From: Nitrospira sp.
GTDB lineage: Bacteria; Nitrospirota; Nitrospiria; Nitrospirales; Nitrospiraceae
Assembly (NCBI GenBank): GCA_025361385.1
Contig: JANYAJ010000138.1
Coordinates: forward strand, 1 to 12,256
Direction of reading: 5' to 3'
Length of the DNA: 12,256 nt
The translations under genes were made by a program, and so were the position numbers. Numbering within the stretch: the first letter of the stretch is position 1; the number at the start of each line of letters is the position of its first letter. Below, piece by piece: positions 2,532 to 7,563 of this stretch. The notes under the pieces are model-generated. The model was not told where the DNA came from. It did not search any database and saw nothing but the letters and a program-made list of their open reading frames with translations.

Positions 2532-2543
2532 TACAGATTGGGT

Positions 2544-3062
2544 ATGGAACACATTATTTCGATAACGGTAGAGAATAAGTTTGGCTCTCTGTCTCGCGTC
2601 GCCGGCTTGTTCAGCGGTCGCGGCTTCAACATCGAAAGTCTCTCTGTGGCGCCGACGCTCGATCCGTCCATGTCGCAGATGACCATCGTCACGTCCGGAG
2701 ACGACCGGATCATCGAGCAGATCGTGAAACAGCTTAATAAACTGATCGACGTCATCAAGGTTGTGGATTTGAATGAGAGCGATTTTGTCTCGCGGGAGAC
2801 CGCGCTCATCAAAGTGCATACGCGACCGGAAGATCGCGCAGAAGCGTTACGGATTGCCGATATTTTTCGGGCCAATGTCATCGACTCCACACCGGCAACC
2901 TACACGATTGAAGTGACCGGAGATCCTCACAAGATCGAAGCGATCATCAACCTGCTGCAACCACTCGGCATCAAAGAGCTCACCAGGACCGGACGGGTCG
3001 CGGTCGCCCGTGAGTCGATTCGCTCGACGAGCCTGCAGACGAAAAAAGTTGCCCGCGAATAG
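2544..3062 (+). CDS. ilvN: Acetolactate synthase small (regulatory) subunit
   Basis: This subunit binds the catalytic IlvB subunit, raises its activity and usually gives feedback inhibition by valine. The 172 residues from ATG match the family length. The N-terminal ACT domain (about 1-75) starts with the typical strand HIISITVEN, followed by GSLSRVAGLFSGRGFNIESL, which contains the family's effector-site and dimer-contact signature. The C-terminal domain (about 80-160) contains RETALIKV and ends with the GRVAVAR segment. The gene sits directly downstream of its partner, so the subunits are made together. TTG 2538 is an alternative start with better Shine-Dalgarno spacing. The symbol ilvH is equally used for this family. 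No residue looks anomalous. Confidence 0.95.
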   Translation: MEHIISITVENKFGSLSRVAGLFSGRGFNIESLSVAPTLDPSMSQMTIVTSGDDRIIEQIVKQLNKLIDVIKVVDLNESDFVSRETALIKVHTRPEDRAEALRIADIFRANVIDSTPATYTIEVTGDPHKIEAIINLLQPLGIKELTRTGRVAVARESIRSTSLQTKKVARE

Positions 3063-3122: not shown

Positions 3123-4139
<1,017 letters not shown>

Positions 4140-4157: not shown

Positions 4158-4808
4158 GTGGCAGATCGTGCCGTCGGCATCCCGTTTGCCAAAGAAGGAA
4201 TTCCCTTCATCGGGGCTGCTGTTGGCGTTACACTGCTAACAGGATGGCTTGGTTGGGCTCTCATCGCGGTGGGTGGGGCGATTCTGACGCTGTTTGTCGC
4301 CTGGTTTTTCCGCAACCCCCATCGAGTGGTCCCTCAAGGGCCTCGTCTCCTCGTGGCATCCGGTGACGGGAAAGTCATTGCCATCGAAGAGGAGTTCGAG
4401 CCTCGATTCATCAAGGATCGCAGCATCCGCGTCACCATCTTCTTGAACGTATTCGATGTGCATATCAATCGGATTCCCTGTGAAGGGGTTGTCGAGGAGG
4501 TGCAGTATCAGCCGGGTTTATTTCTCGTGGCCAGCAGACCTGATGCCACGTTGCGGAACGAGCAAAATGCGTTGATGATTCGGACGGCTCAGGGCGCAAA
4601 GGTACTCTGTGTGCAGGTGGCGGGATTAATTGCCAGGCGGATTGTCTGTTGGATTTCAGCCGGGGATCGGGCCATACTCGGTGAGCGGTTTGGGCTGATT
4701 CGATTCGGATCGCGGATGGATACGTTTCTTCCTCTCGGGACGGTTCTGAAAGTTGCAGTCGGCGATCGAGTCAAAGGTGGCGAAACCATCTTGGGGGAAT
4801 TGCCATGA
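4158..4808 (+). CDS. psd: Phosphatidylserine decarboxylase, short proenzyme
   Basis: The enzyme decarboxylates phosphatidylserine to phosphatidylethanolamine at the inner membrane. The 216-residue size and the FGSR cleavage site mark the short Psd family. The chain should cut itself between G184 and S185, and S185 then becomes the pyruvoyl group of the alpha subunit. The other members of the self-processing triad are visible as D70 (SGDGKV) and H102 (DVHINR). Hydrophobic stretches at about 17-30 and 33-50 anchor the N-terminus in the membrane. The start is GTG 4158 with TTGAGGT at 4147-4153. It lies 18 bases after ilvC and overlaps pssA by 4 bases. The downstream partner makes its substrate. 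Archaetidylserine decarboxylase activity is an alternative known for this family. Confidence 0.92.
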   Translation: MADRAVGIPFAKEGIPFIGAAVGVTLLTGWLGWALIAVGGAILTLFVAWFFRNPHRVVPQGPRLLVASGDGKVIAIEEEFEPRFIKDRSIRVTIFLNVFDVHINRIPCEGVVEEVQYQPGLFLVASRPDATLRNEQNALMIRTAQGAKVLCVQVAGLIARRIVCWISAGDRAILGERFGLIRFGSRMDTFLPLGTVLKVAVGDRVKGGETILGELP

Positions 4809-5596
4809 AAACTACTGCGTTGCGTCAATCATTCGGCAGAGATGGAAAACGGCGTAAAGCCGCCATGCACCTGATTCCGAATCTGTTCACGACAGGGAAT
4901 CTTCTCTGCGGTGTATTTTCGATATTGTCGGTGTTCAATGCAAACTACATGGTCGCAGCCGTCGCCATTCTGGTGGCAATGATCTTCGACGTGCTTGACG
5001 GAAAGTCGGCGCGGTTAACGAACAGCACCAGTCATTTCGGTCTCGAATACGACTCGTTGTCAGACGTGGTGTCGTTCGGAGTTGCCCCTGGCCTTTTGAT
5101 TTACTCTTGGGCGTTGAGCGGACAGGGGACATTTGGCATTGCGGTGATGTTTGCCTATGTCGCGATGGGTGCGGTTCGGTTGGCCCGATTTAATTCGACT
5201 GTGGCCACGTCGGACGGCAAGTATTTTACCGGGCTCGCCATTCCTGCGGCGGCAGGGGTTGTGGCCTCACTCGTGATTTTTGATCACTATAGCGTCAGGA
5301 TTGGCACGGAAGTGAAGCCTCTTCTCGTCCTGATTGTGACGCTGACTCTTTCGTTCTTGATGGTCAGCACCATTAAGTATCGAAGCTTTAAAGATCTGAA
5401 GTTTCGCGGTGGGCGGCACATTACGTATCTCGTGTGGGGAATTCTCGCACTCATGCTCGTAGCCGCCTGGCCCCCGGTCATGTTATTTGTCATATTCGCT
5501 GGGTATGCCTTGCTCGGTCCGGCAGAACGGCTTGTCGGGCTTGTCGCAAAAATGTCCTGGAAACGTTCACCGGCCAAGACCGAGCAGTCGGTCTGA
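4805..5596 (+). CDS. pssA: CDP-diacylglycerol-serine O-phosphatidyltransferase
   Basis: This integral membrane enzyme transfers phosphatidyl from CDP-diacylglycerol to serine, giving phosphatidylserine, the Psd substrate. The CDP-alcohol phosphotransferase signature is complete: D62-x2-D65-G66-x2-A69-R70-x8-G79-x3-D83-x3-D87. It is preceded by the subfamily hallmark HLIPNLFTTGNLLCG (22-36). Several hydrophobic segments follow, at about 35-60, 95-118, 130-155, 165-185 and 205-240. Its 263 residues fit the Bacillus-type PssA. ATG 4805 overlaps the psd stop as ATGA, with GGGGGA 6 bases upstream. The first 20 residues are polar and basic, and Met21 could be an alternative start. The stop lies 14 bases before the first base of the T-box. 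Confidence 0.94.
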   Translation: MKTTALRQSFGRDGKRRKAAMHLIPNLFTTGNLLCGVFSILSVFNANYMVAAVAILVAMIFDVLDGKSARLTNSTSHFGLEYDSLSDVVSFGVAPGLLIYSWALSGQGTFGIAVMFAYVAMGAVRLARFNSTVATSDGKYFTGLAIPAAAGVVASLVIFDHYSVRIGTEVKPLLVLIVTLTLSFLMVSTIKYRSFKDLKFRGGRHITYLVWGILALMLVAAWPPVMLFVIFAGYALLGPAERLVGLVAKMSWKRSPAKTEQSV

Positions 5597-5802
5597 ATTG
5601 AATTGTTCGTGGCTGCGACGAGGAGTAGTACGCGATTCGCATAGCAGTGAGAGAGCTGGTGAATGGTGCAAACCAGCCTGTGCGGCGCCGAACTCGCCTC
5701 TGAGCCAGAATCCGTGAAACCCGAGTAATGGATTCCGTTTCGCCCTCGTGACCGGGCGCAATGAAGGGTCGTGAGCAGCGAGCGCGTTGTTCATGGCTAA
5801 AT

Positions 5803-5841
5803 CAGGGTGGTACCACGGAGCTTCTCAAGCCTCCGTCCCTG
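5803..5841 (+). promoter_or_regulatory. T-box antiterminator with UGGU tRNA-acceptor bulge
   Basis: CAGGG (5803-5807) pairs with CCCTG (5837-5841), and ACGGAG (5815-5820) pairs with CTCCGT (5831-5836). They flank the 7-base bulge TGGTACC (5808-5814). UGGU at 5808-5811 complements the ACCA end of a tRNA whose discriminator base is A, as in bacterial tRNA-Leu, which agrees with the CTC specifier. The right arm (5831-5841) overlaps the left arm of the terminator, so the two folds exclude each other. Confidence 0.93.
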
Positions 5842-5864
5842 GGCGTAGGGATGGAGGTTTTTTT
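5830..5864 (+). terminator. Intrinsic terminator of the leuA T-box leader
   Basis: CCTCCGTCCCT (5830-5840) pairs with AGGGATGGAGG (5847-5857). This makes an 11-bp stem with one G-U pair and a 6-base loop, followed by seven T residues (5858-5864). With charged tRNA-Leu this hairpin should form and stop transcription before leuA. Confidence 0.93.
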
Positions 5865-5868
5865 ATTT

Positions 5869-5993
5869 GAGATTGCTGAAAATGCTTTCCCGCTGCGTTC
5901 TCGGTCGCGTGTCTCCCTGCGACGTACCCTACGGGTACGCCTCAGTCGTCCCGCTTCCTGCAGCCTTGCGGGAAAAGCATTTTGAGCAATCTC
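5869..5993. repeat. 125-bp imperfect palindrome, MITE-like or extragenic repeat element
   Basis: The left arm (5869-5893) and right arm (5968-5993) are inverted copies that differ by one substitution (G5878 against the complement of G5984) and one extra A in the right arm. A 7-bp stem with a TAC loop sits at the centre (5923-5929/5933-5939, CGTACCC/GGGTACG). There is no transposase gene, and I see no clear target-site duplication at the ends. The element fills the space between the T-box terminator and the leuA ribosome binding site. It is either a non-autonomous mobile element or a repeated extragenic palindrome. That it recurs elsewhere in the genome is inference. Confidence 0.7.
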
Positions 5994-6015
5994 ACCAGAT
6001 AAGAGAGGTGAAGTT

Positions 6016-7563
6016 ATGACCAGAATGATCAAAATTTTCGATACGACCTTGCGTGACGGAGAGCAATCTCCTGGCGCCAGCATGAATGTAGAAGAGAAAA
6101 TCATGCTGGCGAAGCAATTGGCTCGTCTTGGGGTCGATATTATCGAGGCGGGATTTGCGTATAGTTCGCCCGGAGATTTCGAGGCGGTGCGGCGAATTGC
6201 GCAGGAGGTCGAGGGACCGACGATTTGTAGCTTGGCGCGGGCACGCCCGGAGGATATCGATCGAGCCTGGGAAGCTTTAAAGGGGGCGCCGAAGGTCCGG
6301 ATCCATACGTTTCTCTCGACCTCGGATATCCACTTGAAACATCAGTTCCGTATGACGCGTGATGAGGCCAAGAAACGGGCAGTGGAGATGGTCCAGCGGG
6401 CAAGAGGCTATGTGGAGGATGTGGAGTTTTCGGCAATGGATGCGAGCCGGTCCGATCCGGCCTATCTCTATGAAGTCCTTGAAGCGGTGATCGAAGCCGG
6501 AGCCGGCACGGTGAATATTCCGGACACGGTCGGCTATGGGGTTCCTCAGGAGTTTGGGAAGTTGATCCGGGGATTCCGCGAGCAGGTGACGAACAGTGCG
6601 AAGGCGGTGATTTCCGTCCATTGTCACAACGACCTCGGCCTCGCCGTGGGGAACAGCTTGGCGGCGGTATTCGAAGGGGCAGGTCAGGTCGAGTGCACGA
6701 TCAATGGGATCGGTGAGCGGGCAGGGAATACGGCGTTGGAAGAAATTGTTATGGGTCTTCGGACCAGGAAAGACTTCTATCAAGCCGACACGAAGATCCG
6801 CACCGAAGAGATCTCGAAAACTAGCCGATTGGTCAGCAAGATCACCGGTATGGTGGTGCAGCCGAACAAGGCGATTGTCGGGGCGAATGCCTTTGCCCAT
6901 ACGTCCGGCATTCACCAGGACGGGCTGCTGAAGGACAAGACGACCTATGAAATCATGAAGCCAGAGACGATCGGGCTGGTCGAGGGCAAGATGGTCATGG
7001 GGAAGCTTTCTGGACGGCATGCGTTTCGGCAGAGGCTGGTGGAGCTGGGCTATACGCTCTCGGACGAAGAGGTGAACCACGCGTTCGAGCGGTTCAAGAA
7101 GCTGGCCGACCAGAAGAAGGAGATCTACGAAGAGGATCTCGAAGTGATTGTCTCCGAAGAGTTGGTCAAAATGGCCGATCGGATCACCTTGAAGTCGTTC
7201 CATGTGGCCAGCGGAACGGACCAAGTGCCGACCGCGACGGTTGAACTTGAGATCGACGGACGAACGATCGTTCAGACGGGAACAGGCGATGGGCCGGTGG
7301 ATGCCGTCTATCGGACCATTGCCGCCATCACGCAGACGAAGAGCACGCTCCTCATGTACGTCGTGAAAGCGATCACGGGGGGGACCGATGCTCAGGGTGA
7401 AGTCTCAGTCAAGGTTCAAGAGGATGGGCGCACCGTATCGGGCCATGGAGCGGATACAGACATCATTATGGCGTCAGCCCGTGCCTATCTCAACGCGTTG
7501 AACAAGCTATTGTATTTGGCGGGAAAGCAGGCGCAGGGCGAGCAGAAAGTGAACTTGATTTAA
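6016..7563 (+). CDS. leuA: 2-isopropylmalate synthase
   Basis: This is the first committed step of leucine synthesis, joining acetyl-CoA and 2-oxoisovalerate into 2-isopropylmalate. Its 515 residues are the usual length for the type with a regulatory domain. The TIM barrel (about 5-270) opens with DTTLRDGEQSPG. Metal ligands are visible at D14, H202 and H204 (VHCHNDLGLA) and N238 (GNTALEE), with R13 as the catalytic Arg. A linker (about 290-390, GANAFAHTSGIHQDG) leads to the C-terminal LeuA dimer domain (about 395-500), where leucine normally inhibits. The start is ATG 6016 with GAGAGGTG at 6003-6010. Met4 is possible but less well spaced. The gene lies behind the leucine T-box, so it should be controlled both by transcription and by feedback. 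Homocitrate or citramalate synthase is a less likely reading. Confidence 0.95.
   Translation: MTRMIKIFDTTLRDGEQSPGASMNVEEKIMLAKQLARLGVDIIEAGFAYSSPGDFEAVRRIAQEVEGPTICSLARARPEDIDRAWEALKGAPKVRIHTFLSTSDIHLKHQFRMTRDEAKKRAVEMVQRARGYVEDVEFSAMDASRSDPAYLYEVLEAVIEAGAGTVNIPDTVGYGVPQEFGKLIRGFREQVTNSAKAVISVHCHNDLGLAVGNSLAAVFEGAGQVECTINGIGERAGNTALEEIVMGLRTRKDFYQADTKIRTEEISKTSRLVSKITGMVVQPNKAIVGANAFAHTSGIHQDGLLKDKTTYEIMKPETIGLVEGKMVMGKLSGRHAFRQRLVELGYTLSDEEVNHAFERFKKLADQKKEIYEEDLEVIVSEELVKMADRITLKSFHVASGTDQVPTATVELEIDGRTIVQTGTGDGPVDAVYRTIAAITQTKSTLLMYVVKAITGGTDAQGEVSVKVQEDGRTVSGHGADTDIIMASARAYLNALNKLLYLAGKQAQGEQKVNLI

Follow-up and report, generated by a model that had tools for sequence, protein, structure and literature searches.

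A leucine T-box riboswitch ahead of leuA in Nitrospira, and dispersed palindromic repeats as a likely source of T-box insertions

Between pssA and leuA in a 12,256-nucleotide stretch of Nitrospira DNA (the window), a preliminary description made from the letters alone had placed a complete leucine T-box riboswitch and had suggested that it either extended the known distribution of these leaders or recorded horizontal transfer of the regulator. The locus raises the questions of whether this leader is a genuine T-box, how such a switch came to stand in the Nitrospirota, nitrite oxidizers that are central to the nitrogen cycle, and what the hairpin between its terminator and leuA, which the preliminary description did not include, represents. 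The genes of the window were named by NCBIfam as ilvB, ilvN, ilvC, psd, pssA, leuA, and leuB, and the features under discussion are the following.

743-2518: ilvB, ahead of ilvC
2538-3062: ilvN, ahead of ilvC
3126-4139, forward strand: ilvC (TIGR00465, 454.6 bits, cut-off 226.15)
4805-5596, forward strand: pssA (TIGR00473, 127.9 bits, cut-off 107), with a conserved junction
5606-5864, forward strand: leucine T-box riboswitch (class I, transcriptional) with terminator (RF00230, 84.0 bits; covariation)
5611-5706, forward strand: stem I, comprising basal helix, specifier loop, mid helix, and distal loop module (pairs and covariation)
5693-5695, forward strand: specifier codon CUC (Leu), complement of the tRNA-Leu anticodon GAG, in the context GAA-CTC-GCC
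5708-5735, forward strand: stem II with a GUGAA...AGUA internal loop (pairs 5708-5713/5730-5735; 99.6% of cells paired)
5736-5758, forward strand: stem IIA/B region, helix IIB at 5741-5745/5754-5758 (65.4% of cells paired)
5767-5798, forward strand: stem III (pairs 5767-5780/5785-5798; 80.7% of cells paired)
5804-5840, forward strand: antiterminator, helices 5804-5807/5837-5840 and 5815-5820/5831-5836 (100% and 99.6% of cells paired)
5808-5814, forward strand: T-box bulge UGGUACC, of which UGGU (5808-5811) complements the tRNA 3' ACCA
5830-5864, forward strand: intrinsic terminator of 11 bp (5830-5840/5847-5857) followed by T7 (5858-5864); -23.6 kcal/mol for 5829-5864
5867-5995, forward strand: dispersed palindromic repeat (hairpin) of ~128 nt, between terminator and leuA (model R1, 125 bits)
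6016-7563, forward strand: leuA, 2-isopropylmalate synthase, the controlled gene (TIGR00973, 738 bits, cut-off 598.7)

The feature is a genuine leucine T-box of class I, of the transcriptional type. Window positions 5606-5843 on the forward strand corresponded to positions 1-219 of the Rfam model RF00230, end to end, at 84.0 bits and with E-values of 7.2e-19 (461 nt searched) and 1.2e-18 (genome-wide), and the host assembly (82% complete) contained no second RF00230 match. The RF00230 gathering score is 93, so a default Rfam pass leaves the window T-box without an entry, and the check proposed in the preliminary description came out divided: the E-value spoke for a T-box, and the bit score failed the literal rule of a score below threshold. 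Membership in the covariance model was thus given by the E-value and not by the curated cut-off. The threshold failure was overruled because of the E-value, the covariation described below, and matches in 124 further Nitrospirota genomes; 67 of the 125 Nitrospirota T-boxes likewise fell under the cut-off of 93. As to folding, none of 200 shuffled sequences was as stable as the leader (z -3.4).

Stem I was built from pairs at 5611-5614/5703-5706, 5620-5623/5697-5700, 5632-5634/5686-5688, 5638-5644/5678-5684, and 5655-5660/5672-5677. The CTC specifier lay exactly at the claimed 5693-5695, and the UGGU bulge, antiterminator, and terminator likewise occupied the places first assigned to them, which bears out a T-box ahead of leuA. 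The internal loop of stem II is one that we take to be an S-turn. One described part differed: in place of an 8-bp IIA/B pseudoknot, we found the 5-bp helix IIB and, by eye, about 2 bp of IIA. Positions 5831-5840 are used by both antiterminator and terminator, so the two folds exclude each other, as had been proposed. The host genome carries a tRNA-Leu(GAG) gene (L162:380-463) whose gene end reads ACCA, and this tRNA fits both the CUC specifier and the UGGU bulge.

Alignment A4, in which covariation was evaluated, comprised 44 distinct family T-boxes: that of the window plus 43 others, canonical in stem I and picked by hand from 85 non-redundant sequences among 129 T-boxes. Over 59 pairs, 89.8% of the cells were paired, compared with 32.0 to 49.0% when the partners were slid, and double changes were seen in 36 of the 59 pairs, compared with 19 to 25 for slid partners; on none of five measures did any of 500 shuffles reach the observed value. 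Double changes occurred in every pair (7 of 7) of the mid helix in stem I (5638-5644/5678-5684), 5 of 6 in stem II, 13 of 14 in stem III, and 2 of 5 in IIB, the weakest helix. The antiterminator was near-invariant across the alignment. In the terminator, 94.2% of the cells were paired (46 to 63% when slid) and covariation was weak, with double changes in 1 of 11 pairs and 406 of 500 shuffles reaching its pair-type count. At the column common to both folds, the triples were GCG in 13 rows, GTA in 12, ATG in 10, ATA in 6, and GTG in 3; a standard pair was formed in both folds in 44 of 44 rows, and in 25 of the 44 one fold or both used a G-U wobble (GTA 12, ATG 10, and GTG 3).

The LeuA protein of the window was 93% identical over its full length to that of a Nitrospira lenta MAG (L002) and 96% identical over 396 residues to that of L014. 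Among the matches listed, the best 80 of at least 592 confirmed stretches, the nearest relatives were Nitrospira MAGs including N. lenta, and the LeuA tree was concordant, so that the host, earlier guessed to belong to the Nitrospirota, can be assigned to Nitrospira. With leuA downstream, a CUC specifier, and tRNA-Leu(GAG) in the genome, the assignment of the switch to leucine and to leuA also stood. We put the probability at roughly 90% that this Nitrospira leader is a canonical leucine T-box of class I, which would work by tRNA-Leu(GAG)-controlled readthrough into leuA. By analogy with the known T-box mechanism, leucine shortage would let the anticodon of uncharged tRNA-Leu(GAG) pair with CUC in the specifier loop of stem I while the tRNA elbow docks on the distal loop; pairing of the tRNA ACCA end with UGGU would then hold the antiterminator, and RNA polymerase would read into leuA. 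When the tRNA is charged, the terminator (5830-5864) would form and transcription would end ahead of leuA. The hairpin at 5867-5995 would travel in the readthrough leader as a passenger repeat outside the switch.

In the window, 14 nt separate the pssA stop from the first stem I pair. Across loci, the distance from the pssA stop to ~3 nt ahead of stem I was 50 nt or less in 122 of the 130 loci that could be measured; of the 145 loci given, 9 dropped out for want of a pssA match and 6 for want of T-box landmarks, and some genomes were counted twice. The order ilvC-psd-pssA-T-box-leuA was found in all 13 named T-box loci from the family. Since stem I directly follows the pssA stop, the T-box probably serves as a valve within one ilv-psd-pssA-leu transcription unit and would control the leucine branch where it departs from the common branched-chain pathway. 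At its upstream end, the window carries a bacterial RNase P RNA of class A at 1-226 (123 bits), which is cut by the window start.

RF00230 was matched in 125 of 395 sampled Nitrospirota genomes (E<=1e-3; 58 matches above the cut-off) in a scan whose stricter filters lost some weak matches. Positive genomes belonged to 24 of 169 sampled genera. In the family of the window, 108 of 110 sampled genomes were positive, and all 18 genomes listed for the sister family f2 were negative; a further 250 Nitrospirota genomes, seemingly more distant by their order of kinship, were negative in the same scan, and the remaining 17 positives were in f6, f9, f15, f16, and f19. Whole genomes behind the best LeuA loci had a T-box match in 24 of 78 cases (14/39 and 10/39), these genomes covering 78 of the 80 loci, with L075 and L076 left out. 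Of 126 T-box loci, namely, those from the Nitrospirota genome scan plus the window, 122 had leuA downstream, and the other four (L100, L198, L257, and L258) were short stretches with no leuA match in them. The specifier was CUC in 122 of 125 loci (L094 and L175, for instance, read CTC) and CUG in 3 of 125; L258 was without the bulge. The three CUG-specifier leuA T-boxes (L097, L102, and L225) came from two genera and stood together on the leuA tree. Two leuA T-boxes, L183 and L198, were unusually short, with 57 to 58 nt from specifier to bulge, which suggests loss of stem II.

An extension of the known distribution of T-boxes, as the preliminary description had anticipated, is thereby supported: the string “Nitrospir” is absent from the main text of four papers on T-boxes or riboswitches (PMC2494555, PMC3766115, PMC7778990, and PMC12452182), and no T-box report for Nitrospira or Nitrospirota was found in the open-licence literature searched. 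This suggests a known kind of switch in a phylum unreported in that literature, although the 58 T-boxes above the cut-off are ones that the automatic annotation of Rfam would pick up already.

Two alternatives bear on the position and the origin of the leader. Promoters within upstream genes are common, and a conventional 5' leader transcribed from a separate promoter within the pssA coding region, in place of an operon-internal attenuator, is quite possible, although we lean against it. A simple scan of window positions 5300-6020 found no sigma-70-like promoter, which fits an internal attenuator but proves nothing, the scan having been limited to one promoter type. In most of the loci measured, stem I starts at the pssA stop or close to it, which also speaks against a separate promoter, as do L012, L013, and L027, which have the identical gene order, ilvC-psd-pssA-leuA, with no T-box and whose genomes had no RF00230 match. 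Judged from position only, a separate promoter for the T-box would be absent. As to origin, the patchy presence across the phylum and the eight changes of the T-box label on the LeuA tree (a quick tree of 102 rows), six of them forced by well-supported branches, could be taken for recent horizontal transfer of the leader, for example from Bacillota or Geobacter, and the specifier context GAACT[C/G] is common to the Nitrospirota and four Geobacter-type copies. However, recent transfer is very unlikely. It is unsupported because the LeuA proteins of the family group with those of other Nitrospirota and not near those of Geobacter or Bacillota, because presence in the family is nearly universal, and because the same pssA|leuA junction recurs in the family. 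The Geobacter locus L062 does have the identical ilvC-psd-pssA-T-box-leuA order, but that order fits shared descent of the cluster too; in L067 and L073 the upstream genes were absent within 3 kb, and L065 had too little upstream sequence to tell. The suggestion of horizontal transfer, taken as a recent event, was therefore not upheld. Patchy presence across the phylum would fit an ancient transfer of the leader as well as its loss on several occasions. In our reading the leader is long established in the family and elsewhere has been lost or exchanged, at undated times. Leucine T-boxes are in this way firmly placed in the Nitrospirota, in whose Nitrospira family they are a near-universal trait rather than a stray import.

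The hairpin behind the terminator belongs to a family of dispersed repeats, many copies of one covarying hairpin lying mostly between genes. The window copy (5867-5995, 129 nt) contributed to the repeat model R1, and its folding was markedly stable (z -7.4 for window 5866-6001). The host genome held 109 copies at E<=1e-3 among 150 scored and 70 at E<=1e-15 among 84 scored. No Rfam family matched up to an E-value of 10 in 5560-6020. At L203, ~1.1 kb separated the T-box terminator from leuA, starting with an apparently interrupted repeat copy. A Y1/RAYT transposase was considered as the mobilizer and rejected, no link being found: PF01797 (Y1 transposase) was matched in 25 of 41 family genomes, and G077 had at least 84 repeat copies yet no PF01797 match, so that the partnership expected of REPIN and RAYT was not seen. 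The sole Y1 transposase match in the host genome (G000:C174:14990-15310) contained an internal TAG.

The same repeat was found inside stem I of related T-boxes. Both stem I landmarks were located in 114 of the 126 loci, and the 5' strand, counted from GGAGTAGTA as far as the distal AGAGA, measured 25 to 30 nt in 81 loci, 45 to 49 nt in 20, 88 to 104 nt in 3, 152 to 156 nt in 9, and 126 nt in L217. The full inserts (L229, L230, L239, L243, L244, L245, L246, L249, and L251) scored 104 to 130 bits with R1, and the partial inserts (L247, L250, L255, and L258) scored 25 to 33 bits, all on the strand opposite to the T-box; none of the 7 short forms tested, of the 20, had an R1 match. Seven of the nine full inserts had helped build R1, and the two left out were L229 (113.7 bits), which is near-identical to the included L230, and L245 (110.4 bits). 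On a quick leuA DNA tree (106 rows, SH-aLRT only), the invaded loci formed one clade with a support of 100 (20 short, 9 full, 2 partial, and 1 unclassified), with L255 apart. The T-box of the window is itself canonical and free of repeat invasion.

Throughout these changes the opposite strand, from distal module to specifier, stayed at exactly 40 nt in 33 of 33 classified loci with a longer 5' strand (20 short, 3 partial, 9 full, and L217); the same length was found in 66 of the 81 canonical loci. In alignment A1 (60 rows, 16 invaded), the distal stem, stems II and III, and the antiterminator paired about equally in invaded and canonical rows, and the terminator had 91.5% of its cells paired in invaded rows versus 94.4% in canonical rows. 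Predicted stem I folds placed most long inserts in a side arm, with the specifier stem and distal hairpin intact, and several short forms were predicted to refold differently. The short remnants (~18 nt) folded better than shuffles in 12 of 20 cases (p<=0.05), and the 8 others comprised 7 members of one sub-clade of eight, plus L216; given this mixed folding, we make no claim that all remnants are maintained hairpins. Elsewhere, L253, L256, and L257 had 62 to 64 nt in place of 40 from distal module to specifier, with extra sequence in the distal loop of stem I, which in L253 is a hairpin by eye.

How the hairpins behind and within the switch are to be understood depends on two further weighings. 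The hairpin at 5867-5995 could be a second functional element of the leuA leader, such as an mRNA stabilizer, a processing site, or an ncRNA, since double changes were found in 18 of 30 consensus pairs (44 copies) and many genomes, from several genera, have the repeat between the terminator and leuA. Nevertheless, this is doubtful: the repeat occurs in 41 of 41 family genomes with 1 (G288) to at least 84 copies each; only 9 of the 30 best host copies lay wholly inside an ORF of at least 120 codons, compared with 79% of random windows from the same loci; the spacer from terminator to leuA is 39 nt or less in 21 of 122 loci, too short for the repeat, which is therefore absent at those leuA loci; and close relatives (L001 and L231) carry very different variants. 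We read the hairpin as a passenger repeat outside the switch. Within stem I, a ~126-nt repeat would have entered the 5' strand once and then been cut several times, down to the ~18-nt remnant. That the short hairpin is older, with the full repeat inserted into it several times, is improbable. In its favour, the two states are intermixed on the leuA DNA tree (nine changes between short and longer forms, seven of them forced for the short form), and the length of the short form is near-constant at 46 nt in 17 of 20. Against it, the arms of the short hairpin in L241, CAGAATG/CATTCTG, are the ends of the repeat itself and are present once in full copies, 9 of 9 full copies share one orientation, and there are partial forms, measuring 88, 95, and 104 nt. 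A single entry followed by several cut-downs is the history that we consider more likely.

Invasion was not confined to this clade. In L217 (G131:C39, family f6), a different multi-copy hairpin repeat occupied the same stretch of stem I; it had no R1 match, and blastn matched it at 43 places in the genome of L217 (its own site included; of 109 candidates, 40 were scored) and at 7 in the other T-box-bearing f6 genome. In the f16 loci L087 and L088, a palindrome, GTCATTCCCGCG-NNN-GCGGGAATCCAG, which differs by eye from the other repeats, lay in the region of stem II, downstream of the specifier and ahead of the T-box bulge. Sites of the GTCATTCCCGCG type, with at most 2 mismatches, numbered 282 in the L087 genome (one inside its T-box) and 39 in the L088 genome, compared with 0 in each for the reversed control. 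Together with the R1 clade, these loci give three repeat families inside the T-boxes of three families of one phylum. It is likely that dispersed palindromic repeats of the host repeatedly invade T-boxes and are a source of lineage-specific insertions, in one Nitrospira clade (one entry and several cut-downs) and in two further Nitrospirota families, with the length of the ruler kept.

PMC4919913 describes stem I as a length-sensitive ruler. The tRNA ruler would survive such an event because its length is unaffected by a hairpin that folds on itself within one strand, and on the sequences at hand we favour a neutral origin of the insertions with the ruler preserved. The natural series of empty site, full insert, partial insert, and remnant makes the function of insertions a testable question of neutral versus adaptive change.

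Set beside known systems, the window T-box resembles the RF00230 T-box leader in its full-length match, specifier loop, distal loop module, stems II and III, UGGN bulge, and antiterminator/terminator, and differs in its 84 bits against a cut-off of 93 and in adjoining the stop of a phospholipid gene inside a gene cluster. A leuA T-box is reported for Geobacter sulfurreducens and Pelobacter carbinolicus in PMC2494555; it likewise stands upstream of leuA in a Gram-negative host, and the four Geobacter-type loci included here also have CUC, whereas their LeuA is 58 to 59% identical to that of the window and separate on the tree.

ERIC/REP/REPIN-type repeats are dispersed imperfect palindromes in many copies. 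The window repeat is like them an imperfect palindrome in many copies, mostly outside long ORFs, and differs in having no Rfam match and no linked Y1 transposase. At ~128 nt, it is longer than the E. coli elements of 10 to 71 nt given in PMC12306157, which also counts 3,788 REPs in Nitrospira moscoviensis; parts of the window repeat family may be within that count. No report of dispersed-palindrome (ERIC) insertion in riboswitches was found in the open-licence literature searched. The review PMC7583486 treats T-box insertions as an open question and suggests possible new tRNA contacts. The Nitrospirota cases are like those insertions in adding hairpins to stem I and the stem II region, but differ in that their origin is visible as dispersed repeat copies in the same genome, and some of the insertions described there as “with unknown structure and function” would be accounted for by derivation from genomic repeats. 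The result of most interest therefore comes from the relatives and the neighbor of the window T-box, in which captured palindromic repeats of the genome offer a concrete, likely origin for some riboswitch insertions.
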